DNA of 64,000 nucleotides from positions 13,690,611 through 13,754,610 of the forward strand of contig OZ022238.1 of the NCBI GenBank assembly GCA_963978895.1, in the 5' to 3' direction. Positions 2,848 to 57,900 of this stretch are shown here, one piece after another. Position numbers and translations under genes: made by a program. Numbering within the stretch: position 1 is the first letter of the stretch; the number at the start of each line of letters is the position of its first letter. The notes below the pieces were generated by a model. The model had not been told where the DNA came from. It ran no database searches and saw nothing but the letters and a program-made list of their open reading frames with translations. Source of the DNA: Erpobdella octoculata. Its lineage: Eukaryota > Annelida > Clitellata > Hirudinida > Erpobdellidae.

Positions 2848-5675
2848 ATGAATACAGGTAAATGTTTTTGTATTTTGTTGCCAACATTTTTCAGCAACAT
2901 TATAGCCAAGATCTGCTACCGGAACGTCATCACTGAAGAAGTAAATTACAACTCACCATCTGCAACAAATCAATGTCCACAATCAACCTGCGCTTTGTCA
3001 AGCAACCTCTCATACACACCTTTCTTTTTAAACGGACCAATGTCTGATCTTGACCAGGTGAAAAAATTGATGGCACTGACAGCTTTCAGGTGTGCAATGT
3101 TCTGCAATGGCTTGACGCAATATTCTGGATTCAACGTCAAACAAGCTAAAACCAACTTAAACGTGACTATTTCTTGTGAAGTTTTTCCTACAAAACCATA
3201 TCTGGTTGTTTCTCACTTGGGAAACTGCTTTTATTTTGGAGTGAGCAATTTTGATTATTCATAATCATTATGAAAAATCTGAGCATTTGAAATATTTTTG
3301 GGCACATTCATTCTTATTTATATTTAATTTAATTTAATTTAATTTATAAATATTTGTGTATATTTAATTTAATTCATTTTATCTTTTATTATGGAAAATA
3401 AAACAATGCTCATTAAAAACTTTAGATTAGAAAAATTGAAGAAACAAAAACTTATTTAAAAAATAGAAACATGCTCATATAAAATATACTCTAAAAAATA
3501 TAAAATAAATTAAAACATAAAAGCGTTGAGTTTTTTTGCATCCCAACAATTGCAACGATTCACACCACGCTTTTATGTCTATTTTGTTTTTGTAATTTCT
3601 TGAACATATTTTTAAATTGTGTTTTTATTTTTCTTAAATATTGTTTATTTCAAACGTTTATTTAGTTTACAATCTCTGTTTGCGCGTGTGTGTGGCTTTC
3701 TCTGTACGCAAATCTTCCAAGTAACATTTAAGCAGCTTTTTGACTAGCTAGGAGGCTAAAACTTTCAGAATAGCTTTATATTGGATGACAATACATGATT
3801 CAACTAAAAAAAATTAATTTGAATATCTTTCGTATTTCTAAATCGAGTGTATTTGAAATTAAAGTTTGTGTTAAAAAACTCGTTTTTTCTTTTACTTGTT
3901 TTTTATTTTTCTATATATAGACAGAAAATCAAGAATATTGTTCACTGATGCAAGTAGGTTGATAATTTATTTTAAACAAATAATCAGGTCACATAACATT
4001 TGACTAAACATTAATTCATTAAGTTATGGGATACCTAGTGTTTGATTATAAAAAATGACGGATAAAACAAAATGGTTTTGAAAGCAGCTTGGGATGGAAA
4101 TTAATTTTTTTTTGCTAAATTAACAACATTGTAAATAGTTGTTAAATAAGTTATTAAATAAATTGGAAAAAAATGACGTAGAAAAATTAATTTAAAATAA
4201 AACAACCAACAACAAAATGTCAATCTAAAATGTGATTATTTTTTTAAAGGTGCTACCACAACAGCGACTTCTAAAACACAAAACAAGCCACAATACAAAT
4301 GAAATCTGAAACTACTGATGTTTCTGAAACTGAAACAACTCCAACGTGGATTGTGAGAATAAAAAAATGATTTATTAAAATGATGGAATTGTTGATAAAA
4401 AATATTATTTTGACGGTTGAGATGATTAAGATAAACATGCCAATGATGACGACGATGACGATGGTGTTGATAATGATGACTGTCACGCTTATGTCTGAAA
4501 TACAGTAAAAACGTGGATTAAGTTTAATTTGTATATCGTTTTAATTTGTTCCGAAAGCCAATCAGAAGGCTCTATTCAAATGTATTTCTAGACAAATCTG
4601 AACAAAGAATTATTGTGAGCACCTCTAATTTGAATTTGCTGTATGATTGTTATTGGTGAGTAGTGTGATCACGTGATATTTTTGGCGCATTGTTATTGCA
4701 AGTTTTGTTTGAATTTTAGGCGCGCAGTCATCATTGGAGAACCATGCCATCACGAGCTTCTTGACTAGAGTCGGCTATAAATAGGACATTAGTCGGTAAA
4801 AAACATTAAATAAATAAACAACAACAGCTTTAAGACGGAGATGAGTTTTAGGACGGAAATGAGCTTTAGGAGTTTTATGACCTGTACGATTATTCGTTTA
4901 CAAACTTTATAGATATTGACTTATGTTTGATTTGTTTTTAATAAAAGTTTAAAACTTTATTAGACTTTCTATTCTTTTACAGTTACGAACGATTTTTACT
5001 ATGGGAACTTTCTTTTGCACTTCTTCAATTTCGTCCCCTGCTTTTATGTTTATAATTTAATTGGTAATTCTTAGAGCATTTTAATTAAATTTGTTCTTAA
5101 TTTTTTTTATTCAGACAAAGAATCAAGAATACCTGATCACTGATACTAGTAGGTTGATAACGTTTTTGTTTGATGAGTACCTAATGAGGTAACATAAAAT
5201 TGGACTAAATATTAAATCATAAACTTATTGATTGTTAAAAATGGCGGATAAAACAGAATATTTTTAATAGCAATCAGGATGGAAATCATGTTTTTGTTGA
5301 AATAACAACATTTTAAATATCTTTTGAAATAAATTAATAAATAAATTTGAAACAAGTATGCCGAAAAAACCAGGTTTTTTTTATCAATTCCCTTATATTT
5401 CTGGATTTGTCGGCTTTTCATTTATTACAAAAAATGTTTGTTTAAATAACATTTTTTTTACTTCATATGTGTAAAATTTTATTCAATTGTATTTGATTGG
5501 TTTTTGTTTTAAAACATAAATAATTATTATTTTTAATTACAGATGGTTTTTTTTTTTCAAAAAATGTTCAAACTTTAATACAATGCATTGTCATAAGGGG
5601 CAAGCCTATATTTCAAGTTTCAGCTTGATTAAATGACGTAAAGTTAGTTAATTTTCACTTTCAAGGTTTGCAAAC

Positions 5676-5706: not shown

Positions 5707-8564
5707 TATTTCTATAGCGCTATTTCCGCAGTGTTCAATAGCGCTCGGTCGTGAACTTGGTAAACAGATATGTTTTAAGTCCACGACGGAAAACTGTGAG
5801 AGAAGTAGAGTTAGTAAGAGAAGAAGGAAGAGAGTTCCAGAGATAGGGGCCAGAGTAGGAGAAAGAGCGTTTAGCAAAAGAATGCTTAATAGTGAAGATG
5901 CGAGAGTGATTACGAGAAGAAGAACGAAGACCAGACTTAGGAGGGATATGTATTAAATTAGTTAAGTAGAGAGGAGAAAGGCAATTTTTTATTTTGTACA
6001 TTATTAAACATATTTTAAAAATCACCCTATATCTGAGAGGAAGCCAATGGAGAAGAACAAGAGATGGAGAGATGTGAGAGGAGTAGGAGGTGCGAGAAAC
6101 TAAGCGAGCAGCCGAGTTGAAGGCTTTGGAGAGAGGATAGAGGGTAGTGTCAGGAAGACCATAGTATAGAGAATTGCAGTAGTCAATTCGAGACAGGACA
6201 AGAGAAGAGACTAGAAGTTGCAGCGAAGGATCATCCAGAAGTGGACGAAGCTGCTTAATACGGCGAAGATGAAAGTAGCAGGATTTAGTAACAGAAGTAA
6301 TTTGGGGGGTTAGCGACAAGTTAGAGTCAAAGAGAAAACCTAAGCTACGAATCAAGGGAGAAGGAGAAATGGAAAGAGAAGATGGTGGTGGCAAAACCAA
6401 AGGAAGAGGATTTAGGGATTTAGAGGACTTGTTGAAATAGATTAGTTCAAACTTGTCAGGATTAAGTTTAAGACACATAGAAGAACTCCAGGATATAATA
6501 GATTGAAGGCAGGCAGCTATTTTGTTAAGAACAGACTCAAGAGAAGAGTTAGAGAAAGTAGAATAGACATAGGAGTCATCGGCATACATTTGGCTATTGA
6601 GAGAGTGAGAAGATATAATATGAGGAAGTTTAGAAGTATAGAGAATAAACAGTAAAGGACCAAGAATAGACCCTTGAGGGACACCGTAGGTCAAAGTTAC
6701 AGGAGTAGATTTAGAAGATTCAATAGAAACATAGGAATATCTACCAGATAGATAAGATTTAATCCACCGGAGAGCATCACTAGTTATATTAAAAGATTTA
6801 TCAAGTACATCCAACAACAGTGAGTGATCAACTGTATCAAATGCAGATGAATAATCAAGACAAAGAAGAAGAGTAGAGAGGCCAGAGTCAGAAAAAACAA
6901 TAAGGTCATTATGAAGCTTAAGTAGAGCAGTTTCAGTGGAGTGGCCAGGTCTGAAGCCAGATTGAGAAGAGGGAAGAAGTGAGAAAGCAGTTAGATAAGC
7001 ACTTATTTGCTCATACACAACTCTTTCCATAATTTTAGAGATAAAGGATAGGTTAGAGACAGGCCTATAGCTAGATAGAGAAGAAGGATCAAGAGAGGCA
7101 TTTTTAATAGTAGGGATAATAAAAGAGGACTTAAGAACAGAGGGAAACACAGATGTAGATAAAGAGAGATTAATTAAATCAAGTAAAATTGGATAAAGAA
7201 CAGAAGAAAGCTCTTTAAAGATAGTAGTAGGAATGAGATCCAAAGAGCAAGTAGAAGAAGACATAGAGTTAATAAGTTTAGTAAGATAGTCAAGTGTAAT
7301 AGGAGAGAAAAAAGTAAAAGTTTCAGTAGAGAATTTAGAAAAAATAGGGGTTTTACTATTGTTAGAAGATCTGATGCTTTCAATTTTCGTGGTAAGAAAA
7401 TTATGATAGTCATCAGGAGAAAAAGAAGGAGGAGGAGATTTTTTATTAAGGAGTTTAGAAAGAGAAGACCACCTATTCCTCGAGCTAGAAGCAAGAACAA
7501 TAGATTTTCTCAAAAAGGAAGAATGCTTAGTAAAGATGAGGTTATGGTATTGTTTGAGATGGTATTGCCACTCATACCAAGAACCTTTAGACAATTTAGA
7601 ACGATAAGCTCGCTCGGCTTTACGTGCAGATTGTTTCAAGAGAACACAATCACGATCAAACCAAGGAGCTTTTTTAGAAAAGAGTCGAAACTTAAACGTC
7701 TCAAAAGGAACCAAAGTATCCAGTATGGATGAAATCGTCAGATTGAGATTGTCCATAAAGGAATCAACATCAGTGAAAGAAGAAGAAGAAAACCCAGAGG
7801 TGAGAAATAAATTTGAAAATTGAATATTATCAAATCTAGACCAACACCTTTTAGTGACTGAAGTAAGATTAATTAAAGGTTGAGATAGAGGTAAAGTGAA
7901 AGAAATAAAGTAGTGATCAGTAAAGTGAAGATTAACAGGTGAAAGATTGCTTATATTAGAGAAAAGAGGAGAAATAATAAGATCTAATGTGTTACCCCGA
8001 TTATGAGTCGGAAAGTCACAATGCTTAAAGAAGTTAAAAGTAGATAAGATTTCAAGAAATTGAGAAACAAAAGAGTCCTTAGTTTTATTAATAGGAATAT
8101 TAAAATCCCCAATGATAAAAGAAGGAGTAGATAGAGAGAAGAGAGATTCAGAAAGGTTGTAGAAATCCTCCAGAAATTGTGGTTTAGAGCATTTAGGAGG
8201 CCTATAGATACCTATTAAATTGAACTTAAAAGAATTAATTTTAACAGAAGTAAAGAGGCATTCAAAAGATGAGAATTTAGTAGAAGAATTGAGAGAGACA
8301 GAATAGGAAGACTTGAAGAGAAGGCATATGCCACCATAGGAAGAATGTTGAGCAGAAAAATGATTAGTAGGAGGCCTAGCCTGCTCAACAAAAGAGAAGC
8401 CAGTAGGAACAGAAGCAAGGAGAGAAGGAGAAGAAGCAGATTCATGCCAGGTCTCAGTCAGGAGAAAGAGATCAAGATAGTTAGACAGGGCTAGCTCAGA
8501 GATAAAGTGATTTATTATTTAGAGAACGAATATTAAGGGTGGCTATATTAAGGCTAGAACTAGG

Positions 8565-8614: not shown

Positions 8615-10512
8615 GACTATTATTAGTTTTAAGATTGTTTATTTTAAGAAGAGGATTTGATATAGAGAGATCAGAGAAAGAAGAGTTGCACTTAGCAATA
8701 CGTTTAAATTTCCTAATATAATTTAGGTTAAGAATATCAAGATAATAAATCTTACGGCGAACAGTGCGAGTGGGCAGAGTAGAAGATTGAGAGAGGCTTA
8801 ATAAGAAATCCCTAGAGTACATTATTAGAGAAAGAAAAGTTTAGAAAAGGGAATACAGAAGAAAAGAAGAAAAACTCACAGTTTCCACGTGAAACAATAA
8901 AACAATTCAAATTTAACTTCGCTCACGAGCCGAAACGCCATGACACCACGGCGCTAAAAACCATAAATATTTGTCAATTCAAGCAGGCAAACAAGCAAGC
9001 AAGCAGGACCAGCGGTGAAGTTAATATGCGGGATTTAAAAATGTAATAGATAAAATAATTTCTAAATGAAACTATCAACTATAAAAAAGTTAATCTAAAA
9101 TGTATACAACTATGTATTTCTTTTAAAGTTGTTACCACCACAGCAACTCTTGAAACAACAAAACAAATTACAATACAAATGAACTCTAAAGCAACTGCTG
9201 TTTCTGCAACTGTAACCACGTCAACATGGAATGTGAGAATTAAAAGATGGTTTATTAAATGGATGGGTTTGTTGATGAGGTTATGACGATTAGGATAAAC
9301 ATGACGATGATGACGACTACGGATGCTTTTTTTAGTATTCCAGCAATAGCAATGATTGCGCTTCAAGCTATTGTGTTTTAAATTGTTTTTACTTTTTCGA
9401 GCATTTTATAAAATCGTGTTTTTTTAAATATTTTTATTTTCTAATTTTTTCTATTTTTAGACGGAAAAACAACAAAACCTGGTTACCTATACAAGTAGGT
9501 TGATAATTTTTTATTAGATAATTATCAGGTCATTTGAATAAATATTAGTTTTGCGTGATTATAAACAAGCAATTATAATTTAAAAATTAAAACAGGTTCT
9601 TAAGAAATGCTCTAGCAGTAACAAAATCTCATAGCAAAATTGTATGTTAAATACTAACATTAAAACTCGTAAACAAAAAATGTTTATATTCACTAAGAGG
9701 TTTAAACGTTTTTTTTGTTTAGAACACCACGGACATCTTAAGACATCCCCGGACAACCCCGGACATCCGCGGACATCCAGATAAAACAGAATGATTTTGA
9801 AAGCAAAAAAGGCTGAAATGACAATTTTGTAAATATTTCTTTTTAATAATAAAATTTAAAAAAATGCTGAATTAGAAAAAAATATTTAAGAATAAAACTA
9901 TCAACAAGAAAAAGTTAATCTAGCGGTGGTGGCAAAGCGGTAAAGCTTGGAGGTCGGCGGTTTAAATCTCACCGGCATCACCATTGTAACTCCCTTAAGC
10001 AAGGAGTTTACACGCATTGCTCAGGTTGAGTGTCTCACGGGGTTAACAACTCCTTTCACTAATCTTAAAAAAAAATGTAAACCACTATTTTTTCAAAGGT
10101 GCTATTAACACACCAACTCTGGAAACAGCAAAACAAGTTGAAAAACAAATGAAATCTGAAACCACTGATGTTTCTGAAACCACTCCGATGTTGATAGTGA
10201 GAATTAAAAGAGGGTTTTTTAAATTGGTGAAATTATTGATACGACAATTTATCTTGACGGCTATGATGAACTAAAACACGATAGCGATAGCGACGATGAT
10301 AATGATGACTATGTTGTTGATGGATGAAAACGTGCATAGTGATAAAATAGTTTTATTCAATTCAGGTGATTCAGAGACGAATAGACGGAAAAGAAAATTT
10401 TTATAGAAACTGGAAGGACTATAAGAATGGATTTGGAAATGCAACTCAAGAAATGTGGATAGGTTAAAATAATTATCAACAAATTAATTTTTGATGTATG
10501 TATGTATGTATG

Positions 10513-10546
<34 letters not shown>

Positions 10547-12671
10547 TGTATGTATGTATGTATGTATGTATGTATGTATGTATGTATGTATGTATGTATG
10601 TATGTATGTATGTATGTATGTATGTATGTATGTATGTATGTATGTATGTATGTATGTATGTATGTATGTATGTATGTATGTATGTATGTATGTATGTATG
10701 TATGTATGTATGTATGTATGTATGTATGTATGTATGTATGTATGTATGTATGTATGTATGTATGTATGTATGTATGTATGTATGTATGTATGTATGTATG
10801 TATGTATGTATGTATGTATGTATGTTATAACTTTGCGTAACGCTGTAATCGTAAAATGATATATAATGATATTTTGAAAAGGCCAACATTTTTACGGGCT
10901 ATTTTGATTATAAATGTAGCTAGGAAACGACCGACTCTTAAAATCACCTATCGGTATTTTCATCCAACAAATTTGGATACTCAAATTTAGTAAATAACGT
11001 TGTACAGACAAAAATTGCCAGTTTTTAAGGCTATTGCAGGTGTAATAGTTTTTAGTGTACGGCTTTTGAAAGCAGTTTTACAGAAACGAAATTCTGGCGA
11101 GGACTGGCAAATTTAAACAATACGCACTGAATTGCTTGAAGATCTCTGTGCTAGAGAGGCTAACATTTACAACAAAAAGCTACGTGTTTTAGACACTGTA
11201 CTGGATTATAGAACCATAAACATTGATGGTACTTGTCCCGCTTATGTCTGAAACAAAACAGACACTCCTGACCTGGTTTAATATGCATATCATGTTGGTG
11301 TGTGTGTATGCATTTGCTGGTGATTGCTGCTAACTCGATAAAAAAATAACGGTAGCCAGTTTGCTTGTTTACTACAGGTAAGCGTATCCACCAGTGTTCA
11401 CCGTTTTCTAAAAATGTTCACCTTATTTGATTTCATTTAAAGTTTTTATTTTTGGATTACACGTGATAAAAACATTTTTTCAGAGATAAACAAAATAAAA
11501 ACTGAAAAAATCTGTTACTACACATTTTCTGTAATTCCAGGAAATGATATGTTGTACAATTTAACGTCAACAAGAAATTGCAAGTTGTCAATTGTTATGG
11601 AAGATTATACTGGGCAAGTGAGATATGCAACTTACTCTTATTTCTCCGTTGGACCTCCTCAGGAAAACTATCGTTTGTATGTTTCTGGCTATTCAGGAAA
11701 TGCTGGTAAGGATGATTGATTTTCTGAATTTTAATCACTCTTTTTGTACTTAAACTGATTTAAGAAAGTAATAAACTGTTACAAATTTTATGAAGGTAGC
11801 CAACTTGAAACATTTTTTAAGCGTTTAGTTAAAATATTTATTTACGAGTTTTTCAAAATTATTTAAAAAATGTTATAAAAATATTTTCAGTATTGTTTTC
11901 AATCACAAACCATTTGAGATGTCTACAAAATCAGCTTTACTATAACAGTTTTGACCAGACTAAATGCTGTATATTTTAGCTATTTTTTTCAATAAAAATT
12001 ATAATTATTATAAAAATTTATAATAACATATAAAAATTATAGTTTGAAATTACAAATTAATTATTTTTTAGAAAATTGAAAATTGTTGATAGAGAAATTT
12101 AATAATTTTCACTTTTTACATTTGTTTACAAGCAAGCAAAAAAAAGAAAGAAGATTAACAGCAAAGTTGATAAAAGAGATTTAATAGTTATTTCTTCTCG
12201 CAAATCATAATTTTATCTATTATTATTATCCAGATTTGCAAAATAGCTTGTCGTCAGCGATTTTATTTCTATCAATACATAAAATGTACTCTATGATGAC
12301 ACAAATGTCAATTTGTTATTTAAATGCTTCTGTAAATCAATACATGAATGTTTACGTTATTTTTAGGTATCATAGAAGGAGTCCAACATTAATAATTAAA
12401 TAATTTAATAGTTTTCATTCTACCAACAGGAGACTCTCTTGAAAACCACAATGGGTGTCAATTTTCTACATTTGACAACGACAATGATCAGGTGACCGGA
12501 AACTCAGCAATCATGTACGGAGGAGCCTGGTGGTTCTGTCGGGGGTTCAGCTCCCACTTAAATGGTAATTACCTTGACAATCAGTCGGTCAGCTTTGGAA
12601 TAATCTGGCAAACGTTCAGCGGCTATTTTGAGTCTCTGAAATTTTGTGAAGTGAAAATTGTGGTTGGTTAG
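2848..12671 (+). CDS. Fibrinogen-related protein A (PAN + Thr-rich + shortened fibrinogen domain)
   Basis: Proposed exons: 2848-3240, 5115-5148, 9129-9232, 9461-9494, 10099-10196, 10366-10462, 11541-11705 and 12430-12671. All borders are GT/AG and all phases fit; the joined frame is 389 codons including TAG. The start MNTGKC was chosen because it aligns with MNT of copy C. Exon 1 gives a signal peptide and a PAN/Apple-like domain ([10 protein letters not shown], then SCEVF). Two short exon pairs give Thr/Ser-rich linkers. The last three exons give a fibrinogen C-terminal domain: VIQRRIDG and [19 protein letters not shown]; the Asp-rich calcium loop FDNDND; and GAWWFCRG. A secreted lectin-like recognition protein is inferred from family knowledge. 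Oddities: one PAN cysteine is Tyr (LTQYSGFN against LTQCFGFN in C), there is an extra broken exon pair, and a full LINE sits in the second intron. AATAAA is at 12749. Confidence 0.75.
3921..4352 (+). pseudogene. Broken exon cassette of copy A (34-nt exon + Thr exon, unit 1)
   Basis: The pair 3921-3953 and 4250-4352 is a relative of the two working cassettes further down. The small exon is 33 nt instead of 34 (one base lost), and the Thr exon reaches an in-frame TGA after about 17 codons in either usable phase. Splice signals are still visible (CAA|GTAGGT; TGGATT|GTGAGA). If included it would truncate the protein, so it is probably skipped. It marks an intragenic exon duplication followed by decay. 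Confidence 0.6.
5678..8965 (-). mobile_element. CR1/L2-like non-LTR retrotransposon (LINE), near full length
   Basis: A minus-strand element carries an endonuclease-reverse transcriptase frame. At its 3' end is a tail of TTGA repeats (plus strand AATC repeats, 5678-5706), the kind of short tandem 3' tail used by CR1/L2-type elements. Before that tail a stem-forming sequence (TATAGCGCTATT ... AATAGCGCT) ends the element. The 5' boundary is placed near 8965, where sequence shared with the other exon cassettes resumes (AAGCAAGCAAGC motif at 8985 onwards). The element lies inside the second intron of copy A and is antisense to it. Confidence 0.8.
5735..8822 (-). CDS. LINE endonuclease-reverse transcriptase (one frameshift)
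   Basis: The frame 7756-5735 (673 codons) holds the reverse transcriptase: [13 protein letters not shown] (palm), [13 protein letters not shown], and the catalytic box MYADDSYVY. Reading upstream without a stop to about 8500 gives an apurinic-type endonuclease: [24 protein letters not shown] and FTDHYFISF. The start of the endonuclease ([11 protein letters not shown]) is in another frame, from an ATG at 8822, so a single-base shift near 8508 separates the N-terminal part. An Asn-rich run from an ATT trinucleotide repeat lies just before it. Its function would be target-primed reverse transcription of the element's own RNA. The copy looks young, apart from the frameshift. Confidence 0.85.
9720..9782 (+). 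repeat. Short CCCCGGACATC minisatellite
   Basis: About five degenerate copies of a CCCCGGACATC-like unit, in an intron of copy A. Confidence 0.6.
9922..10068 (+). mobile_element. tRNA-derived SINE
   Basis: The head GGTGGCAAAGCGGTAAAGC and the box-B-like GGCGGTTTAAATCTCACC look like a decayed tRNA promoter. The downstream TAACTCCCTTAAGCAAGGAGTT is shared with the SINE on the minus strand at 26,340-26,560. TAATCTA and TAATCTT flank it and may be target duplications. It sits in an intron of copy A and splits a sequence block that is continuous in the sister cassettes. Confidence 0.7.
10493..10826 (+). repeat. (TGTA)n microsatellite in copy A intron
   Basis: About 330 bp of almost perfect TGTA repeat, 31 bp after the first fibrinogen exon of copy A. 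The reading frames through it are not genes. Confidence 0.97.
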
Positions 12672-15097: not shown

Positions 15098-16017
15098 CCA
15101 GATACATTTCAGCACTCTTAATGACAACACATTTTTTATAAAAATTGATTGAAATTGTTTTTCAAAAAAAAATGAATTATGATTAAATACCAAATCATTT
15201 TTTGCAGTTTGCTTTTAAAATTTTCTAATGTATTAACCAGTAAGTTCTGCTATCAGAAATCAGTTTCTACTGATGATCAATCCCAAAGTCGCCAGTCGAC
15301 GTGCGCCTCTCCATCCAACCTCTCATATACTCCTTTTTATCTAAGCACACCACTTTCCGATGTCAATCAGATGGAAAAATTGCCAGCCTTAACTGGTTTC
15401 AGATGTGCTATGTTCTGTAATGGCTTGCCGCAGTGTTTTGGATTCAACATCCGACGGGATAAAAACACCTCATACTTGACTCTTTCTTGCGAAGTTTTTC
15501 CCGCAGAACCGCTGCATCTTTCGTACAAGGAAAATTGCTTTTATTTCAAAGTAAGGTATTTTCATTTTATAAAAGTTTAAATTTTACTGTTTGTTTGTCT
15601 TCTATACAAATTCAAACTGTTGGACCAATTTTAACAAAATTTAACGTGGAGATATATGTCAAAGAGTAGAAAAAGATAAGATAGTTTTTAATCACAAAAT
15701 GTTTTTAATTTTTATATGACTAAAAAAACTTTCAAACCAAAAGTTCCTATTTAAGAACATTAAAAATTATTGAGTAATAAAATATGACATTTTGACACAA
15801 CATAGAAATCATTAAAGAAAAGGTTTTTATCAATTATTTTTAAAAAAATTATTTGTTATTTAACTTTTTATTAGCAAAAAATCTTCTAGGCCAAAAGTCC
15901 TTATGCACGAACATCAAAGGTTATTGCGTAACCAATTCAAAATTTAGTTTACGTAATAACAAAGTTTAAAGAAAGTTTCAAAAAAACGTTTATTAAATTT
16001 ATTTTACATTTTATGGG

Positions 16018-27111: not shown

Positions 27112-30100
27112 CTAGCGGACCCGGCGAACTTCGTTTCACCTTAAAGAGTGTGTTTTTTAAGCAATTAAGAACAAAAATAACAAATATCCTATATATAAGT
27201 TTAAAAAAAAACAAAAATAAAAAACGTTCACTTTAATAGTTTATTAGAAAAACATTGGTTGAACTCGGGTCGATTCTCTTTAATCCAGCACTTTATGATA
27301 CATTATGTTTTTTGTTTTATTATCGGGCGAAAAAACAAATAAATCTGATGGTCTGCCGACACATGAACACGCCACATACAATTGACCATGAGAAAAACAT
27401 GCATTATCCAAGTTCAGACCACAAACACTCAAAGATTGGCCTTGTGATTTGTTAATCGTCATAGCAAATGCTAGGCGAATCGGAAATTGAATTCTTTTAA
27501 ACTCAAAGGGCAAATCGGTTGGGATCATAGGAATCCTCGGAATGAGTATTTCTTCGCCTTTGAATTTTCCTTTGAGGATCGTCGCGTGAAGCACATTGAC
27601 CCTTAGTTTCTTTAAAACCAAACGCGTTTCATTGCATAGTTTTGGTTGATTTAGATTTCTAAGCATAATAACTACTGATCCAACCTTCAGTTGTAAATTG
27701 TGCGGTGGTAAGCCAGGCACATCCAAGGAGTTCAAAAATTTAGTTGGATAGTTAGTGGCTTCATCATCATTTGTTACACAGTCAATAGATTTGAATGAAC
27801 GCAGAGTACCAAAAATTTGATTCTGAATTAGAATATTTAAGTCATCCACATCTTTATTCTTAGCCGCCAAAATTGCTCTCTCACTCAACCATTTGTTCTT
27901 TTTATGATTAGCAATGATGTCTGGGAACACTTTATTGATAAGCTCGTCTTTCGATGAAACAAAAGTGCAAAAATTGGGAGGAAAAAAAATCAATCCGGTC
28001 GATTTGTCGACAGGAACACGACCATTACCGATGTTGAGCAATTGCATGGAGAAATCTTCAGCAGATGGATCATTCAGCAATGCAACTCTCATGTTAGAAG
28101 ACAGCTGAAGTTTCATCACATAGCGCCACAGATATGACGATTTGAGGGAAGCATTAATTTCATCGGCAGCAGTCGATCTTGGAATGACTGGCAGTGTTTG
28201 GCGGAAATCGCCAGACAATAAAATCATTGCACCTTCAAAATGTCGCGAGTCATTGCGCAGATCTTTCAGTGTTCTATCAAGTGCTTCCAATGCGCGTCTG
28301 TGCGCCATTGTGCACTCGTCCCAGATGATGATTTTAGATGCTACTAAATCTTTTGCCATTGCAGAGTGTTTTGCAATGTTGCATGTTGGTTGTTCAGTAG
28401 TTTGAAGATTTAAGGGCAATTTTAATGCTGAATGAGCCGTACGGCATCCTTCTAACAATGTGGCTGCTATTCCAGAAGAAGCAACTGCTACCGCGATGTC
28501 TGATCTCGCACGAACAGCGGCCAATATCAAAGACATATGAGAAACGTCTTTCCAGTTCCACCTGGGGCATCAAGAAAAAATAAGCCACCATTTCCATTAT
28601 CGATTGCCTTCATTAATGTATCATACACTTTTTTTGTTGAGGGTTTAAGAGGGGTACATTCGATTGAACTAATTGATCTAATACATCAGGTAACACATGT
28701 CTTCAATCAAGAGCAAAGCCTGGTTATGCATTTCTTCATTCACTTCAAGGTCGGGATTAGTTGAACTGACCCGTATTTGATGTAAAATGTCTTCTGACAT
28801 GCTATTTTTGCATTTGTTCCACAGTTCACGTGGATTTGATGGAAAGCAGGTGGAAATTATAATAGCAAATAATGTGCGTATCTGACTTGGAGATGCTGAA
28901 ATAATTGCTTCAGACATTGTCGTGTCCCAATGATTATCGTTTCCAAGCAACTTGAGCTCTTGACATGCAGCACGAAATGTTGGGCACACTATACCATTGA
29001 TAGTTCGTTGTGATCCAAAAGATGTTGGGCCACAAACATTGACCTACAACAACCTCAATTAGAAGCATTCATCGCTTTTTGGGTGAACTGTATAAATACA
29101 ACCAAGAGCATCAGTAGAATACACACCCGGATGTCCAGGAACCGCACTGCCTTGCTTCCGACGTTGAAATTTCTTTGATGAAGCGTTCCAAGTGTAATAA
29201 CGTGGCATCTTCGAGTAAAGCAACGTTTGTGCAAATGGATCGCTTTGGCAAATCGCAAAAAAACTCGTTAATGTTGTTCGTGGAGGTTTTTCAGCACGTT
29301 GAATAATATTCGACGCGTTAAAATAAACTCGTTGATCGTTCTCCAGATGCACAGCCAAATGGACAACAGTGGGATGACGTTCGTGAATAGAGAATGAGAA
29401 TATACGCCAAATTGCCTCATTGCAGTTCACATATCTACCAATTTGATAGCGTCTAATCTTGTCGCTATCTGAGCTTTGAATGCCAAAAACTGCCATATCG
29501 CTGCCTTTCGTTACATATTTGCAGATGTACTTAATTGACTTTACAGAATTGCAATACTCAACATTGCAATGTGTCTTGAATGTTTAGGAAAGAAGTGGCG
29601 AATATGGAACAATCCAACCGTTGTCAACCACGAAATCGTTTCCTTTCACTTTCTTTGTGACAGTTCGACCGTTATCATCGGGTGATCGACGTCGATATAA
29701 TGGATAGCCATCAGTGCCAGTGATTGTCTCTGTCGTAAATGTTCGTGGATAACGTTTGGAACACTTGCCGTCGACCATGCACGGTGATTAGGGGTTGATG
29801 GCGCCACACGGTCCATGAATCATATTCATAACTACAACATCATGTAGGTCTGGATCGATTTCGGGATCAGCAATATTGACAAAACAGCATTGACACTTTG
29901 TTAATGCCAAATGGAAACGGAAAATGCGAAACTAAAAATCATATATCTATGCTAAATTAATCATCTGTATATCTCGATAACCCAAACTCCAATTTGAAAA
30001 ATTCCGTAAGACCAAATAGAGGGTACTCTACAACTTTGCCATTTGAAGTTTTTTTCTAGGACGCACTGTTGTGACTGTATAGCTACCGGGTACATACTGC

Positions 30101-33193: not shown

Positions 33194-33375
33194 CTATTGC
33201 TACTGATAAAAAAAATCACTTTGCATTTTTTTTTTCATTTTTATGGTACGCATGATAAAACACGTTTGTTAAGCAAATTATTTAAACAAATATTTAGCAT
33301 TAGTTCGGCTCTTCTTATAGCAGCACTTGATCTTGTAAACTTTTATAAAATCGTTTATGAAATTCATTAGCAAAG

Positions 33376-40120
<6,745 letters not shown>

Positions 40121-41499: not shown

Positions 41500-41806
41500 T
41501 ATATAGTTCCCGCTCGCTCACCCGCTCCGCTCGCTCATTTTGTGACGGATTTCAAAATTTTTTTCTCTATATTTGATTCCCCTTGACTCTCAAGGTTGTG
41601 TGAAAATTTCATTACCATCGGATGAATGGTGTAGCAATGCGTGAATACAATACCTATATACATACATACATACATACATACATACATACATACATACATA
41701 CATACATACATACATACATACATACATACATACATACATACATACATACATACATACATACATACATACATACATACATACAAACATTCATTTTTATATA
41801 TATAGA
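41500..41806 (-). mobile_element. Helitron 5' part with TACA/TGTA array
   Basis: On the minus strand it begins TCTATATATATAAAAATGAA at 41806. A TGTA array of about 120 bp follows (plus-strand TACA, 41,659-41,782). Then come ACCATTCATCCGATGGTAAT and CTTGAGAGTCAAGGGGAATC, shared with 30,345-30,410, and a GAGCGAGCGG-rich remnant. The 3' end is missing. Confidence 0.7.
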
Positions 41807-42309
41807 TGTATGTATGTATGTATGTATGTATGTATGTATGTATGTATGTATGTATGTATGTATGTATGTATGTATGTATGTATGTATGTATGTATGTATG
41901 TATGTATGTATGTATGTATGTATGTATGTATGTATGTATGTATGTATGTATGTATGTATGTATGTATGTATGTATGTATGTATGTATGTATGTATGTATG
42001 TATGTATGTATGTATGTATGTATGTATGTATGTATGTATGTATGTATGTATGTATGTATATATGTATGTATGTATGTATGCATGTATGTATGTGCGTATG
42101 TATGTGTGTATGTATGTATGTATGTGTATGTGCATGTATGTGTCTCTGTATGTGTGTTTATGTATGTATGTATCTATGTATGTATGTATGCATGTATGTA
42201 TGTATGTATGTATGTATGTATGTATGTATGTATGTGTTTTTTAACAATACTTCGGCACTAATTGCTTATTCAAAGTATGTATGTGTATATATGTATGTAT
42301 GTATGTATG
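41807..42309 (+). repeat. (TGTA)n microsatellite, left part
   Basis: About 430 bp of TGTA repeat, pure to about 42,055 and then with many variants (TGTGTA, GCATG). It is split from its continuation at 43,911 by a hAT insertion. Confidence 0.95.
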
Positions 42310-43910
42310 CAGTGTTGGGTAGGATTTGAAATCAAATGATTTCAAATCACGATTTCAAATCAAAATATTGGTTTTTTATTTTTGATTTTTGATTTGAAAT
42401 CATTTTGCAAAGTTTAATTTTGATTTGAAATCATTTTTTGACGATTATCGATTTTATTTTAATATTCGAAAATCAAAATCATAACATATTTTGTCTATGC
42501 TGCTATTTCTATGCCAAGCCAACAATCGCTTTGAGCGGTAACTTATACAAATAGTTTTTATGAACATGGCAGATAGTATAGATTACGATTTGAATTGCGT
42601 AAGAATGTGTAATTTGCCTTCGTTACTTGATAATTTTTTTTAAATAACTAGCGGGAAAGGTGACAGAGTGGTAGCTAAGTGTGTTAATTGCGCTAAGTCA
42701 ATTTCAGGATCAAAATTTTCTTCGTCATTTGAAGGTAACGTGCTATAATTATACTATAATAGATACGGTAAAACCGTACTTTCCTACAGGTGAATGAAGT
42801 TAGCAACGAAGCGGGAAACGATGTCTATTTTCACTCCAAATCGCCACAAATTAATTGAATAAAAAATAAACTAAAATTGTCCGCCTTTTCAAACAAATGT
42901 TTTCTTTTATAGAAATATTAGCTTGATTAAAGAGTGCAAAAACTATTTTGAAATATTTATTGACACTTTGTGATAAATGCTTTCCACGACTTGACTTTAC
43001 AAATATGTTACCGACACAGCCAATCAGAAAAAAATTAATCAAAAAATAATAAAATTATCCGCCTTTTCAAACAAATGTATTCTCATAGCAAGTTTAACGT
43101 AGAACTCAAATATCTAATTACATTTTACACTTAATAATTGCCGAAAATCGTTGCCCGAAGCGTTGCTAATTTCCTGGAGCTCTTTCTACCGAACAATTAT
43201 TAAATCAAATAGGTTGCTATCTTAATGTGCCGAAAACTCAAATGCAGTTGAATTTTGTTGATTTTAATATTTAAAGGATGAGCGTCATATCTGTGTCAGC
43301 TACTGCTGATGGACTCAAAAGTCAAAGAATGGAACGAATTGATAATGACTACGGCTACTATGATGACCAGTGTTCTTCACAGACCATCGGTACCTCTAAC
43401 AATGTCTACAACATTCAGATAAAAATGATGAACTATTTATCGGATGTTGACAGCACTTTTGCCATATTTAGTTCATATGAATTGATTAAAAAAGTGTTCA
43501 TAAGATATAATACAACACTGCCTTCGTCATCTCCTGTCGAAAAACTGTTCAGTTCCGCCGGTTTAATTGAAACTCACAGAAGAAATAGTTTGACTGATTC
43601 AACATTTGAGAAATTGTTGCTTTTGAAGATGAATAAACTTTAGTCACATTTCATTGTTTAAGTGATTTTAGATCAAATTGTGTTAAAACATAGTTTTATA
43701 GACAAAATTATGTTGAATTAAACCATACCGTGTAATAATAGTTTATAAAAAAATGATTTTGATTTGATGATTTGAAATCATTTTTAAAAGTGATTTTGAT
43801 TTGAAATCATTTTGAAATTAATGATTTTGATTTTGATTTGAAATCATATTTTTCTTGACGATTTTGATTTTGATTTCAAATCATTTCAAAAATGATTTTA
43901 CCCAACACTG
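42310..43910 (+). mobile_element. hAT transposon inserted into the TGTA array
   Basis: Terminal inverted repeats CAGTGTTGGGTAGGATTTGA and, at the other end, TTTTACCCAACACTG. Subterminal GATTTGAAATCA repeats occur at both ends. Flanks TATGTATG and TTTGTATG are near-identical 8-bp duplications of the microsatellite. The element contains the end of a hAT transposase frame. Confidence 0.85.
43278..43643 (+). CDS. hAT transposase, C-terminal dimerisation region
   Basis: A 121-codon frame whose C-terminal half reads NTTLPSSSPVEKLFSSAGLI, then RRNSLTDSTFEKLLLLKMN. This is the hAT family dimerisation region (P.SS..VERLFS.AG...R..L....E.L..L..N). The catalytic N-terminal part is missing, so the element cannot move itself. 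Confidence 0.75.
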   Translation: MSVISVSATADGLKSQRMERIDNDYGYYDDQCSSQTIGTSNNVYNIQIKMMNYLSDVDSTFAIFSSYELIKKVFIRYNTTLPSSSPVEKLFSSAGLIETHRRNSLTDSTFEKLLLLKMNKL

Positions 43911-44178
43911 TTTGTATGTATGTATGTATGTATGTATGTATGTATGTATGTATGTATGTATGTATGTATGTATGTATGTATGTATGTATGTATGTATGTA
44001 TGTATGTAGAATCGGATCTATGGGGGAAGCAACTGAGAGCAAAAGAATGAGCAGGAAAGCGACAGGGAACAGATAACGACCGGGAGCGGTAGCCCAAACA
44101 GGAAGGAAACGGGAGCGAAAAAGAAACGCATTAGGTAAACCTCTAAAAACCCCGGGCAACGCCGGGCGCCCCCGCTAG
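43911..44178 (+). mobile_element. TGTA array and Helitron 3' end
   Basis: A TGTA run (to 44,008) is followed by GGAAAGCGACAGGGAAC-type units, CCTCTAAAAACCCCGGGCAA, CGCCGGGCGCCCC and CGCTAG (CTAG at 44175-44178). This is the same family as the elements at 40.5-41.4 kb. Confidence 0.7.
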
Positions 44179-44705: not shown

Positions 44706-47700
44706 ATGCTGCTAACATTGTTTTTATTTTTAGCATCTTCGCAAGGTCTTAATAATGAAGAGTGCCATAAGCCGCTATCTGAAGGAGTATGCTCAAACGA
44801 AAATTTTACTAACTGCCGATATCTTTCTTTGACTCAAAATTTCTTTAACCTTTCACACAGTGTAGACATTTACTTTTTGGTCGACACAAACATTTATTCA
44901 GCAAGAGATAGTGAGCTAAAAGATTATAACGCTAAGATTGTAAGGTTTGTGTCAGAATTACCGCTTACATTAGACGCCATCTTTAACAGATCGACATCTT
45001 TCAGACAATTAACTGTATTAGCGTTTAACAACACGTACACGTTTGATATGGTGGCCAATGTTAGTAATTATGGAGATATGTTAAATGGATTTAAAAACGA
45101 GGTTCAAAATAAATTGACCATTACTAACGTCAACCAAGAAGGTAAAGACAAACTTACGGATGCACTCGAAAAATTTAACAGTTCTTTAAAAAATGACTCG
45201 GCTCACAAAGTTCTATGGGTGTTAACAGATGTCAGAGTTATTTCGAACACAGAAAAGTTTAGAGACTTGACAACTGCAATTAAAAACAAACATACAGTTA
45301 TTTATACAGTTTCAGTTGGCGCTTGCCCGTTTGGATTTTTTAATGATAAAACATTCCAAGATGCCATGCACAATCTGTCCACCGAACGAAAAGGATACTC
45401 GGCATGTTTTGACAGTTGGAATTCAAGCATTTTGAGTAGGTGAATTTAATTTTTTCAGTGTCCACATCTCGTTTTTTTATGTATTTATTTTATTTATAAT
45501 TCCGCACACCTGCCCAGGGGCGCAACCAGCAGAAAATGCTGGGGAGCTCAAGTGTGAAAAAAGAAAAAAGCCCGCCGCAGGCAAATATTTTTTTGACTAT
45601 CTTTAGTTTGCAGTTTTTTTGGTATCTTTAAGAATTTATTAATGAAAGAAAAGAAAAACTGAAAACTGAAGATACTCAAACTCAGTCTCAAACCAGTTTA
45701 AGCAATTGTAAAAAAAAAATAAGTTTATGAATAAATGTAGCATCCCCTAGTTTTAGAAAGAGAAGAAAGCCCGCCGCAGGCAAAAATTTTGTTTGACTAT
45801 CTCCAGTCTGCAGTCTTTTTTAGTATCTTTAAGAATTTATTAGTAATGGAAAATAAAGACTACAAACTGAAAGTCAAAATCAGTCTCAAACCAGTTAAAG
45901 CAATTGTGAAAAAAAACAATTTTATGAATAAATGTAGCACCACTCACCCCCACCCAAAAAAACCCTAATATTTGGAAAAATTGCAGGGCCTTCCGATTTG
46001 CCTTCGGAGGTGGAGGGCTTGCTGAAGTTTTAAAAAGGAAATAAAACTCGCCCCAGGCAAAAAATATTTGACTATCTTTAGTCTGCAGTCTTTTTTGGTG
46101 TCTTTAAGAATTTATTAATGATAGAAAATAAAGACTACAAACTGAAGATAGTCAAAATCAGTCTCAAACCAGTTAAAGCAATTGTAAAAAAAATAAGTTT
46201 ATGAATAAATGTAGCACCCCCTCCATTCCCCTACCCAAAAAAACTCATCGAATTTGGAAAAATTGCAGGACCCTCCGATTTGCCCCCCCCCTAGTTGCGC
46301 CCCTGCACCTGCCTCAATTTGTTGTCATCGTTTTGATGTTTTTGGATTTGCGGTGACGAGCTCCTGTGCACTGAATACTCTGTAGTGAATAATTATTGTG
46401 GTTTTAACTTATTATACGCGTCATTTTACCATTTTATATTTATATAATTTCTTATTCATTAATTACGTTTGTCTTAACAGTTAGTATTGCTTTAAATTCT
46501 AATTTCTAATTTGTTTCATTTTCCGTCAATAACTTTCTTTCATAGTATTCTGTTTTATGCTTAAGGGTTCTGAAGATGGCTTAGTTAAAACTGACCAGTT
46601 AATCTTTTTTTTATTATTTAATAAATTATTTCAATTTCTCAAACCGTTAAAAATAACAAAAGACGTCATGAAAGACAGTCAAAAAAGTGTTGAATGTTAA
46701 ATGGACTATGATCTTCAATAGAGGATGTTACAGCAAATATATATATATATATATTGTTACGATATTGCCTTATCATATTTGATCCATTTTCATTTTTCTC
46801 TTCTCCCCAGGCCCGTGACTGACTCACTTTACGCAAGACGCGGAATACGTTTCAATATACGTACTCTCTTACGCTAGTTAAAAGTGAAACAACTTTCTTC
46901 GTGTTTGTAGGTGCCTTTTCAAACAGATGTGACGACGTCGAATGCCCCTGTAACGCTATCACAAGTGTTTTAACAAGTAGAATTTCAAATTTTAATATTA
47001 TTTAAAGTTGATTATATTGAAACATGCCATAACAAGTGCATGATTATTGAAACCATTACTAACTACCTGATCATTGCTCAAAGTACTGTTAACAATTGAG
47101 ATATTATTTTAACTTATATCAGCGGCCACCACTATTACATTGCAAGAAAAAGTCATCATTATAGCCTGTGTGGTCTGTGGAGGAATCTTTCTTCTTATCT
47201 TCGTGACCATCTTTCTAGTGATAATCTGTAGAAAAAAGAATTATTGCACAAGGAAAGAAACTGAGACGGACCCACAGAGAGAATATGACGAAGTAGATAA
47301 CGTGAGTTGGTGGTTTCTCTTTTTTGTCAAAGCAAGCTTTAGGTTTAACTGAAAGGTGGGTTCTTTGACATTCTCTGAAAATGATGAGCTGTTTAACAAA
47401 TTGTTCTATGTAAATGTGTGTCATCAATTGAAGTTTCGTACACATTACACATTAGTTTAAATGAAAGGTGGGTTCCTTGACATTGTTTGAATGTGATGAG
47501 CTGTTAAACAAATTGTTCTATGTAAATGGTTTGATGTGTGTCATCAGTTGAAGTTGCGTACAAATTAAGGCTGCACGGGTAAGGCAAAATCCGTACCCAA
47601 CCCGTAAAATGGTGTACCTGATTATAATTATTTTTATTTACTTCCAAGACAAACCTGAAAGAACATTTTTTTATAGGTAAACCGCGGGTAGAGTTGTAAT

Positions 47701-49451
47701 TGTGCAGCCCTAGTATACATGTATGTGTGCGAATAAGGATTTATATTACATCGAGCTGATTGTATATATTTTGGCAATTAAATTATTATTCATATACATC
47801 TAAGCTGCATTGAGATTTTAGAGGCGTAATGGGAGTTTTCGGTTTGCGGAAAGTTTACCCCCGTCTTTTTGTTCCCCGGCTTTGGATCCCAGTTGTTTTG
47901 CCTCTTTGAAAGTCTGCTCCCAGTTTTTCACCTCTGTATAAAACTTTAGATAAATTTTGCAAAAACATCAACAACTACCCCCCCCCCTCTCCGGTCATCA
48001 GCTATTTTGGCAGGAAAGTGTATACAATTTTGGAGAAGTTTTGGAAAAATTATTTACTATTAGTTATTATAGGAGGGAAAAGTGTCAAAAAAAGTTTTGA
48101 ATTGTGTGGGTTTTTGAAACTAATTGCTCCCCCCAACTCAAATTTATGCCGAAATGACGCTCCTACCCTCCCCTAATTTTAAAATTATCCCTCAAATTCA
48201 AGTTGTCTGGATGAAACCAACTTGCAATATTTCTTGGGAACAAAAGATTGTGAGAGAAAAGGGGTCGAAATCCCCGAGAACTAACGTTTCATGAAGAGAA
48301 GGTGTTAAAATCGAAAACAATAAAACGTTGATGAATTTTTCCAAATCAAAATGCAGGGGTGAAAACCGGGACAAAAAACTGGGGGCGAGAAAACAGGATA
48401 AAAATCGGAGGCAAAACACTGAAAACAAGTTTTTCTAAGGAAAAAACTGGGGGCAAAAAAATAGAGCAAAAAATCTGGGGCTGAAAAAGGAAGGCGAGAA
48501 ACAAGAGGCAAACTTTCCCAGGGCAGGTCTTTCCCGGGAACGAAAAAATAGCGACAAAAAGATGACGGCGAAAATCCGGTGGCGAACCTTTCGTAAACCA
48601 AAGTTTTCACCTCACCTGGTGACTAAATGGCACCTCTTCTACAAATTATGGAGATCATGGAGAGTAAACACTAATCAGCCTTTTCTCTGAAGAAATATTG
48701 ATGACAGGGGAACACTAGTCAGCTTTTCCTTATTTTCGATATACGTAGGCCGTCGTAGGCAATAAAATCGTCGATTTTTAATCTATATTTGTTTAGCTCT
48801 CGCTGATGCGGTACACGGGAACATGTCTCCTTTGCTACGCGTTTGTACAGTTTGAATCGGACATTTACGCACACATTCGCAAACACACACTGACACAACC
48901 ACCTCATTTTAATGCTTGACACACGTGCAATAGCTTGCGGTAAAGCGGCTTCCCTAAAGCTACAAACTTGTTCTTTTACCAAAAACTCAAACCAGCGCTT
49001 TATTCACTACATTTTATTTCATTAACAAAAGATTCCGCTCAGCGAATGGAAAGAACATATAGAAAGCAAAGCTGCAGAGCTTAGTTTGAGCAACCTGGTC
49101 ATCACATCTTTTGACGACAACACATTAATCCAATCCAGCAACGAAGATATTCTACAACCAGAAGATATTAACACAGTAAAAAAACTATTCCAAAGTAAAA
49201 AACCTGTCACTACAAAAAACGCGCCAAAATTGATCATCAACAGATACGAGTTTCAAATCATAGAAAGAGACCAAAAAACCATCAAATGCACCGGATTCAG
49301 CTCCACTGGTAACTACCAAAGTCCAGCCACACTTATTGCCTCGAGCAACACGAATAAACTAGTATTCGCCATGTCCAGGGCTACAAGCGACAAAACAGTG
49401 CAGCAGAGAATTCAAAACGAATTAAACGAAATTCTTAACAGTTTTAATTGA
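44706..49451 (+). CDS. Predicted type I membrane protein: vWA-like domain, transmembrane helix, cytoplasmic profilin domain
   Basis: Exons: 44706-45435, 46911-46964, 47123-47301 and 49032-49451. The phases fit (1, 1, 0) and the joined frame is 461 codons including TGA. Residues 1-14 are a signal peptide (MLLTLFLFLASSQG). Residues about 50-240 form a vWA-like domain (VDIYFLVDTNIY, LTVLAFNN, KVLWVLTDVRV, TVIYTVSVGAC); the metal-site motif DxSxS is changed to DTNIY. Exon 2 adds a Cys-rich hinge (CDDVECPC). Exon 3 encodes one transmembrane helix (IIIACVVCGGIFLLIFVTIF) and a basic stop CRKK. Exon 4 reads as a whole profilin-like domain: SEWKEHIES, LVITSFDDNTLIQSSNEDIL, LIINRYEFQIIERDQKTI, then a C-terminal helix. 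AATAAA lies at 49510. The link of exon 4 to exon 3 is inferred from phase and position; exon 4 could belong to a separate profilin gene. Confidence 0.6.
45515..46305. mobile_element. Non-autonomous hAT-like element with perfect 8-bp target duplication
   Basis: Ends CAGGGGCGCAACCAG and CTAGTTGCGCCCCTG are inverted repeats. CACCTGCC flanks both sides (45507-45514 and 46306-46313). The interior holds three related blocks, each with a GCC(G)CAGGCAAA motif, TTGACTATCT, CTTTAAGAATTTATTA, and ATGAATAAATGTAGCA (about 45,570, 45,769 and 46,049). It sits in the first intron of the vWA-profilin gene. Confidence 0.9.
46755..46910. repeat. Possible solo-LTR-like or SINE-like fragment
   Basis: TGTTACGATATTGCC, then CAGGCCCGTGACTGACTC and ACGCAAGACGCGG. 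A similar CAGGCTCATGACTGGCTC and CGTGCGAGGCGGAG occurs at about 21,492-21,527. The class is unknown. Confidence 0.3.
47350..47565 (+). repeat. Tandem duplication of about 110 bp
   Basis: GAAAGGTGGGTTCTTTGACA to GTTCTATGTAAATG and GTGTGTCATCA-TTGAAGTT occurs twice in a row (about 47,351-47,445 and 47,463-47,563). It lies in the intron just after the transmembrane exon. Confidence 0.85.
47567..47712. mobile_element. Short MITE
   Basis: Inverted ends AGGCTGCACGGGT and TTGTGCAGCCCT around a 146-bp element. The flanks GTACAAAT and GTATACAT agree at 6 of 8 positions. Confidence 0.6.
47830..48610. repeat. Element with long imperfect inverted ends and a purine-rich interior
   Basis: The left end (GGTTTGCGGAAAGTTTACCC, CCGTCTTTTTGTTCCCC) resembles the reverse complement of the right end (GGTTTACGAAAGGTTCGCC, CGTCATCTTTTTGTCGC). 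From 48,340 to 48,560 there are irregular AAAAACTGGGGGC-like units. No coding capacity is supported. It is in the intron before the profilin exon. Confidence 0.45.
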
Positions 49452-49509: not shown

Positions 49510-49515
49510 AATAAA
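49510..49515 (+). terminator. Polyadenylation signal of the vWA-profilin gene
   Basis: AATAAA lies 59 bp after the TGA stop. It fits the end of the profilin exon transcript. Confidence 0.5.
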
Positions 49516-54900: not shown

Positions 54901-57900
54901 ATTACAACACTCACATCTTTTTGCGGTTTATATTCAAAAACTAGCTTTTGCCAGCATTTTCAGAAATTTAGATTTTTGTAGGGCCTGATATAAATTAAAC
55001 ATCCTTGTATGTTTTGATGGAAGAAAGGAATTAATTAAACTCGATTGAGACAATTTAACTTACAAATACTATTATAAACAGATGCCGATGTCGTCCCAAA
55101 ACGTTGACAGTTACGCTTATTAAAATTACATAGGATCATCTGCTAAGTTCTGCTTTAATAATTTTGACATTTTTAATAAATATTTACAAACTAAATGTCT
55201 GTAAATTAAAACACATAGCAAATTTAAAACCAATAAATTATTATAATACATGTTCTAACCAAGTCACAGGTTGCAAATATCTGGACAGCAAAACTCAACA
55301 CTCAAAAGTTTTGCTATTTCAAACCTTTAATTTTGTACTCATTTGGTATAATATAAAATATTAAGATGTTAAAAACAAGAGCTAAATAAAAAAATTAGAA
55401 TAGTACGTGTACTCACCAAGGCCGATTTTCTCTCCGGCATCTGGCGGTAGAATGAAGGTGAGCAGTGACAGAAGAGATATGAGAGCACAGGGTATGATCA
55501 GATTGAAGCCGTAGTATAACGTTCTCCGACGTATATGAAACGTGTACGTTATGTCCAGATATGTAGCATTTGGACAGCAGTCGTACTTTTTCTCGTTGCG
55601 CATCGCGGGAGCCTCTGGGGAAAATCATTCTTTGAAACATTTTGTAAATTGAAATAAAATTAATTTAACTGGTTACAATTTTGTGGATAGACGATTGAAA
55701 AAAATTTATTCCGAGCGATTCCAAGTGTGAAAAGCATAGATATCTATGGTCAAAAGTGTTTAGAAAGAGTAATGTCTGCCAACGTGTAGGTAACACAGAA
55801 AGTTTTTGTAATTAAATGACTGTGCTGGCTACCACTATCAGAAAAATAATGTGTCTTTTGATTGTCTTCTGCGGTCCAAGTTTATAAATTCAAGCATATA
55901 TGAAGTAACAATTTTATGCTGGTTTAATTTTTTATATCTGACCAATACTAATCATCTGATCATAGTTTATTCTGGAGTTTTTTTAAACAAAAAATATTTA
56001 AGAATTAAATGAAATGAAATTAAATAAATTTTCAATTTTTGATGATATGAGATGTGGACTTGTCTCGTTAAAATACTAAGATTGATGTGGATTTTACATC
56101 TCAGGTACATGAAAGAATGTTCAGAATCATTAAAGATCAAAGGAATCGTTTAGAAAGTTCTTATCATGGACCAATGTGAAGATAAATGTATAACAAAATT
56201 GCACTTGCTGCTTGTGTGCTATCAGAATGCTTAAAAAAAGTTCAAAGTGATTTTATGCAAGAAGATTATTATAACAACTGTAATTTAATTGCAATTACGG
56301 AGGCTTAAATTGTTTTTAGCTATTTTTTATAACCATCCTCTTTATCATCATCATTGTCATCATCATCGTCGTCATCATCATCATTGTCGTCATAATCATC
56401 ATTGTCACCATGTTTGTCGTCATCATCATTGTGGTCATGACACAAATAATCAAGATGCAGATGAATATCTCTCACCGAGAAGGTCCCACTCTCCACTCTT
56501 CTGGTAAGTACCGATGTTGGCTCTGTCCGATTCGTTAAGAAGGTTGATCTGACTTCCGTCGTAACTCCACGAACCGAACTTCATGTGGCAGAACTGGTCG
56601 TCGAATGGAAACCACTTAATGTCGATGACGCAGGATGAGATGTAAAGACCCAGGGGTATCCAAGTGCAGACGCCTTCGCTAGTGACTATCACGTTTGTTG
56701 GATATTTGCTATCTATGTCCTCATCTGCACTGTGAATGCGAGGATATGATGGTTTTGTTGATGGTCGACGCAAGGAGCAGATATGAATAAGAATAACAAA
56801 TCGAATAGTAGACTTGAATGGTAGATATGAATGGTAGATATTAATGGTAGATATGAATGGTAGATTAGAATAGCAGATCACAAATATATTAATTGTTAAA
56901 CCACTCTTTGTAAGATGCAAGAAGACAATGCAGAAACTGTACTAATGAATCAAATAACCAAATAATTTCTTTAAAAAATCTTCTATAAGTTGCTGGTTAA
57001 CTTTAAAACCGCGTAAATCATTATTCCCAAATGTCCCCCATATTCAGTGGTGCAGTGGAGCCTATACGGTCCCATACGCCGTATAGGCACAGCTATTTCG
57101 TCCATTGTTCCGTATAGGCACAGCTTTTCCTTCGTTTTTTTTGTATATGCACAGCTCTTTCTACTTTATTTTCCGTATGGGTAGGAGTTGTAGTTGCAGT
57201 CATTTAGTGTCACCATACTCACCATTCCTCGACCACATTATATAAAAAAAAACGATTTGGGTGTCTGAATCTTTCAAAGAGGATCCTGGTGAAATGCAAA
57301 CGATGGCGATGCAAGCATCAGAATAGAAAGTGTTTCGAAATGTTCCCTAGCATGCAATGACCGATTGAGATTCATCAACTCAAAGCAATTTATTCAATCC
57401 ATTGTAGACAACATGCGCCATCGACTTTGCAGTTCTACTAGCGTTGGAACAGAGAAAATTATTGCAACTATTGCAATCCTTAATACCGACAATTGACCAC
57501 AAAATGTCTCAATTTGGTATGATAAAAAGAAGATTTCCAAGCTCTCAAAACGCTTTGGTTTGGAAGAGTCGCAATGAATAAATGGGATGCGCGACTATCA
57601 TCAGGATTTCACACAGATTCCGAATGATCTTGCGTCACTTCAAACTTATATCAACATCTTACCCTCCAGCACTGCTGAGTGCAAACGAATTTTTAGTCTC
57701 ATGAACAATATCATCACTGACACTCGATCTTCCATTCTAATTTGCACTGTCTCTAGTCTAATAACAATTCATTCAAATTGACCACCGCTCAACCTCTGGA
57801 ATCCGATGCCTTACCTTGAATCCTGGCTGCTGGAGCATCGCTCTGCTACTTGCACTAAAACCAGACCTGTTGACTCAAATAACAAATACGAAGCAGAAGG

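Follow-up and report, generated by a model that had tools for sequence, protein, structure and literature searches.

A putative leech receptor with a single membrane helix between a vWA-like ectodomain and a predicted profilin-fold tail

Introduction

Can a receptor carry a profilin as its own cytoplasmic tail? Profilins are known from the cytosol, where they occur free, and the general view is that receptors contact actin through chains of adaptors. The question is raised by a locus of the leech Erpobdella octoculata, in a 64-kb stretch of DNA (C1:13690611-13754610 on contig OZ022238.1; hereafter the window) within a genome of 386 Mb in 94 contigs. A first-pass annotation of the window proposed that four exons join into a protein with a vWA-like ectodomain, a membrane helix and a profilin domain. 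We consider it probable, at roughly 0.7, that these exons are spliced into a single-pass receptor, which would have a vWA fold outside the cell, one helix and a profilin-fold tail in the cytoplasm. No description of a receptor with a profilin tail was found in the literature searched, which is incomplete for animals.

Results

The gene model consists of the following elements (window positions).

44706..45435, plus strand: exon 1, with the start codon and the predicted vWA-fold ectodomain, ending in phase 1; an open frame, 35-36% identical to the paralogous exon
44853..45425, plus strand: vWA-like domain, residues 50-240, from fold predictions; metal motif non-canonical
46911..46976, plus strand: exon 2, 22 codons, a short membrane-proximal stalk bearing Cys (AFSNRCDDVECPCN...), phases 1/1
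47123..47301, plus strand: exon 3, putative transmembrane helix and short cytoplasmic linker, ending in EYDEVDN and phase 0 before GTGAGT
47152..47229, plus strand: predicted membrane helix at about residues 276-301, where Kyte-Doolittle hydropathy peaks at 3.16 over 19 residues
47302..49031, plus strand: phase-0 intron between the membrane exon and the profilin-like exon, donor GTGAGT, acceptor ...aacaaaag
49032..49451, plus strand: exon 4, encoding residues 326-464 (the cytoplasmic tail with its predicted profilin fold) and the stop codon; the Trp at tail residue 6 has no Met ahead of it
49510..49515, plus strand: polyadenylation-type signal AATAAA, from a motif scan, shortly 3' of the tail stop

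Joined in phases 1, 1 and 0, the exons form a single open frame of 464 codons; the introns are rich in repeats. The first-pass annotation had read 460 residues. Its phases, its uninterrupted frame and the ends at 44706, 47301, 49032 and 49451 stand, but the length is corrected and the first junction is moved. The 460-residue version, with donor 45439 and acceptor 46927, was rejected, as the phase of its first junction differs from that of the paralogue described below. Donor 45435 (an A followed by GTAGGT) and acceptor 46911 were preferred because the paralogue supports them, with phases 1, 1 and 0 at both loci, although donor 45439 outscores 45435 (2.35 vs -0.65) in the rough matrix that was used for all donor scores. 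Three further details of that annotation were recovered in the sequence: the membrane exon ends in EYDEVDN before its donor GTGAGT at 47301, the tail exon has a phase-0 acceptor at 49032, and no Met precedes the N-terminal Trp of the tail. The frame of the tail exon opens after a stop and has no in-frame ATG ahead of the first helix. Reading past the donor of the membrane exon leads to a stop after 16 codons (9 in the paralogue).

Exon 1 probably encodes a signal peptide, as judged by eye. All nine N-glycosylation sequons of the window protein, and five of the six in the paralogue, precede the membrane helix, and the protein is predicted to lie at the cell surface. The AATAAA beyond the tail tells little about where the transcript ends, because the nearest such signals of the paralogue lie 209 bases past the membrane-exon stop and 270 past the tail stop.

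The paralogue lies on the same chromosome, at C1:18294549-18307089.

C1:18294549-18295296: paralogue exon 1, ectodomain, 35-36% identical to window exon 1
C1:18295365-18295406: paralogue exon 2, short, in the same phase as window exon 2, placed by eye
C1:18299400-18299695: paralogue exon 3, with a phase-0 end before GTAAGT, placed by eye
C1:18306664-18307086: paralogue exon 4, tail, beginning with ATG directly after the acceptor AG

When the tail exon was used as a genome query, one other match was found, at C1:18306688-18307080 (33% identity, E 1.2e-11), and the ectodomain exon likewise had one, at C1:18294621-18295298 (35%, E 1.8e-19). The two matches are 11 kb apart on one strand and in the order of the window. 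Reverse searches with the paralogous ectodomain and tail pieces returned themselves and the window and nothing else; each of these searches with ectodomain and tail pieces scored three or four candidates, and therefore a distant third copy could escape. An exon set with identical phases (1, 1, 0) could be drawn at the second locus, its two inner exons, the short stalk and the membrane helix, being those placed by eye. Joined, these exons give 503 residues; one alignment puts their identity to the window protein at 33%, and blastp at 27% (126 bits). In exon 2, residues F246, S247, D252, C255 and P256 are common to both proteins in the first of these alignments. Nonsynonymous (dN) and synonymous (dS) divergence was 0.67 and 2.21 in exon 1 and 0.65 and 1.99 in exon 4, dS being near-saturated in both. 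The equal dN in exons 1 and 4, set against such dS, is what would be expected of one gene under purifying selection.

The last intron of the paralogue measures 7 kb and holds a reverse-transcriptase-like frame. In this copy proline runs flank the membrane helix (PDPPPPSPPPVLP outside and KPPKLPPPIVPERP inside; C1:18299400-18299695), and the window gene has none. The inner run could be a ligand in cis for profilin or SH3 domains.

The vWA-like nature of the ectodomain, as first proposed, is supported by fold predictions. Its model has the Rossmann-like vWA fold in Foldseek comparison, and the vWA domains of CMG2 and TEM8 are among its top 26 matches. The likeness came from fold comparison alone: the Pfam vWA model gave no match, window exon 1 matched no family at E <= 1, the paralogous exon matched two unrelated weak families, and a PDB sequence search with the ectodomain alignment found no vWA chain. 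The metal site is non-canonical, with D60-T-N-I-Y-S in the window and D-T-K-I-Y-S in the paralogue in place of the canonical DxSxS.

The last 139 residues were folded and compared with profilin. The AlphaFold2 (AF2) model of the tail has a predicted local distance difference test (pLDDT) score of 84.0 and a predicted template modelling (pTM) score of 0.81, and both Foldseek and VIA-align match it to profilins. These include profilins of Leishmania and Asgard archaea that are actin-bound according to their entry titles. Thus the profilin domain first proposed holds as a predicted fold, but it misses the Pfam cut-off, as given below.

Discussion

The fold predictions for both domains, together with a paralogue of the same exon order and phases, support the architecture of vWA-like ectodomain, membrane helix and profilin-fold tail, which we regard as likely. 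To this extent the original interpretation is upheld; the tie to actin monomers or poly-proline partners that it drew falls outside this support.

Several observations weigh against such a receptor. By sequence the tail matches profilin weakly. Pfam Profilin (PF00235) scored 16.9 bits (E 0.007), under the 25-bit cut-off, and unrelated families reached 13.6-14.6 bits. The paralogue tail matched no family in the Pfam scan, and the Pfam profilin model, run against the genome, found three places of canonical profilins and neither tail. An hhalign comparison of the tails with canonical profilins was not significant (probability 0.1, E 0.62), and PDB sequence searches with the tail found no profilin. 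In a low-confidence alignment of four sequences, both tails keep the N-terminal Trp, yet the Tyr of WxxY is replaced by His and the Trp of GSxW by Leu, and the loop carrying KKKGNGG in canonical profilin is five residues shorter. The aromatic patch for poly-proline comprises the N-terminal W, the Y, a second W and C-terminal aromatics, and over the first three, which this alignment covers, it is incomplete in both tails.

Because aromatics are replaced, the loop is shorter and the profile comparison is non-significant, it is uncertain whether the surfaces for actin and poly-proline are conserved. The same replacements, the short loop and the weak Pfam score suit a receptor whose tail has kept the fold alone, has lost binding to actin and poly-proline and acts as a scaffold on which some other partner docks. 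Vertebrate PFN3, without two key poly-proline residues, is reported to have significantly weaker affinity for actin and poly-proline (PMC8387879). On the other hand, the tails have kept the fold along with the N-terminal Trp, their divergence fits purifying selection, and the structural matches include the profilins with actin-bound entry titles. We give a scaffold tail a real chance, somewhat below even, and direct actin binding by the tail about the same.

The remaining adverse points concern the exons and their joining. Two window donors are weak in the rough matrix (-0.65 and -2.74), and three GT sites within the last intron (7.57, 6.76 and 6.76) outscore 47301 (3.48). With the membrane exon as a genome query, six matches at E <= 10 were obtained; apart from the exon itself there were five weak matches, the best at E 0.02 on C11, and none lay at the paralogue. 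Only 12 of the 54 aligned residues of the two membrane exons are identical, and this exon appears to have diverged too far for a genome search to recover its counterpart. One of the six paralogue sequons falls beyond the helix. Finally, the paralogue tail exon opens with an ATG right after the acceptor, and therefore the tail there could belong to a gene of its own.

That ATG is also what would be expected if two adjoining genes had been duplicated together, one for a vWA membrane protein stopping just past 47301, the other small, profilin-like and downstream of it. A possible first exon for the latter exists in the window intron, where 48562-48618 holds an ATG and a phase-0 donor scoring 3.33, against 3.48 for 47301. 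No second copy of this DNA turned up in a genome search, which does not in itself prove rarity. However, this candidate would add 19 residues that are absent from the paralogue. The window tail exon, preceded by a stop and without an in-frame ATG before its first helix, lacks a start codon of its own, whereas the paralogue exon begins with ATG. Both membrane exons have phase-0 GTRAGT donors and both tails phase-0 acceptors, and past the two donors the read-through is dissimilar by eye except for the donor-encoded Val-Ser.

A joint duplication was sought by comparing 501 window frames with 70,402 bases around the paralogue. The comparison recovered the vWA and tail exons and gave many other matches, several of them to a reverse-transcriptase-like frame. 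The SAP-domain frame at window positions 2-343 had one weak match (E 4e-4), which lies 7 kb upstream of the paralogue. The remaining matches are short or look repetitive, and were classed as repeats by appearance and by their multiple partners. Neither the channel gene nor the fibrinogen-domain genes of the window (listed below) were among the matches in these 70 kb, and no other clear co-duplicated gene was seen. We consider two genes unlikely, and the fusion of membrane exon and tail, with 47301 joined to 49032, likely.

A third reading, very improbable, is that of a decaying copy or of unrelated open frames joined into an artefact. The repeat-filled introns and the two weakly scoring donors would fit this, but each of the four frames is open at both loci despite a dS of about 2, and the window and paralogue pieces match reciprocally. 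A single receptor is the best explanation of the locus.

How does such a receptor compare with known systems? Its predicted domain order, in which a single membrane helix separates a vWA ectodomain from a cytoplasmic tail, is that of TEM8/ANTXR1 and CMG2/ANTXR2. Unlike these, it has an altered DxSxS motif, and Pfam scans of exons 1, 3 and 4 listed no ANTXR-type domain, extracellular or cytoplasmic, at E <= 1. We know of no ANTXR tail with a profilin fold. The vWA or I-domain fold is shared with integrin I domains, which bind ligands outside the cell in integrins. Integrins are large heterodimers with short tails working through adaptors. Compared with canonical profilin (PF00235), the tail is predicted to be membrane-tethered, two of its poly-proline aromatics are replaced, and it lies in a single exon instead of the three (joined by eye) of the profilin gene at C1:34.86 Mb; the pieces of a second profilin are on C8. 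The V-ATPase B subunit has no membrane helix of its own and is not a receptor. Its 'profilin-like' domain, within a larger protein, is reported to mediate actin binding of a membrane complex (PMC3409362).

In TEM8, the tail of a vWA receptor is tied to actin when ligand-free and released on ligand binding; the interaction of CMG2 with actin is given as not characterised, both according to one source (PMC6694455). By analogy, the vWA head of the leech protein might bind a matrix or cell-surface ligand and the receptor cluster. The tethered profilin-like tails would then concentrate actin monomers at that patch of membrane, or might instead gather a partner of the profilin site, such as an actin regulator. 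The coupling would resemble that of TEM8/ANTXR1, except that a folded module of the profilin type would do the coupling, and the ligand may strengthen the actin link or, as in TEM8, release it.

Searches for relatives outside this genome found none with the tail exon (E <= 0.01 among 11 candidates), the earlier 460-residue model (E <= 0.1 among 4559) or the two-protein alignment (E <= 0.1 among 7483). These negatives say little about rarity because the database may hold few animal proteins.

The window also contains the following features.

2-343, minus strand: frame with a SAP domain (27.6 bits), which may belong to a transposon
680-986, 10494-10825, 41806-42235 and 43909-44008: (ATGT)n-type arrays of at most 108 copies, 92-99% pure
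2794-3261, 15176-15577 and 33361-33777: mutually similar Cys-rich exons
5738-8518, minus strand: 927-codon frame resembling the endonuclease/reverse transcriptase of a long interspersed element (LINE), by eye; related frames lie near the paralogue
11441-11716 and 12396-12668 (Pfam), 39836-40117 (by likeness): exons of fibrinogen C-terminal domains
27283-29583, minus strand: helicase-like frames with the appearance of a Helitron remnant, by eye
43275-43643: about 1 kb upstream of the receptor gene, what may be left of the C-terminal dimerisation region of a hAT transposase (E 0.013, under the cut-off)
55382-56941, minus strand: exons coding for a ligand-gated channel of the nicotinic type, downstream of the receptor gene and opposite to it in strand; 56453-56941 matches Neur_chan_LBD (E 3.5e-21), the other exon is by eye

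The fibrinogen-domain and Cys-rich exons perhaps form a tandem family of fibrinogen-related proteins. Elsewhere in the assembly, contig C94 (19,123 bases) is mitochondrial, and its COX1 fits the invertebrate code best, with AGA/AGG as Ser, ATA as Met and AAA as Lys (by eye, against conserved motifs). This code does not support a tunicate, echinoderm or cnidarian source and was taken to indicate a protostome.

A vWA receptor coupled to actin is a known kind, and the tail type was found described nowhere in the literature searched; the protein would represent a new class if the control of actin by the tail holds. It is possible, though the odds are somewhat against it, that animals have a class of receptors with profilin as their own cytoplasmic domain, in which ligand-driven clustering of the vWA head places the tethered profilin at the membrane and so switches local actin assembly without adaptors, and of which one genome holds two diverged genes. 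If so, a receptor with a profilin fold would connect ligand and actin monomer by a very short route, and it would be a natural experiment on the function of profilin when it is fixed to the membrane.
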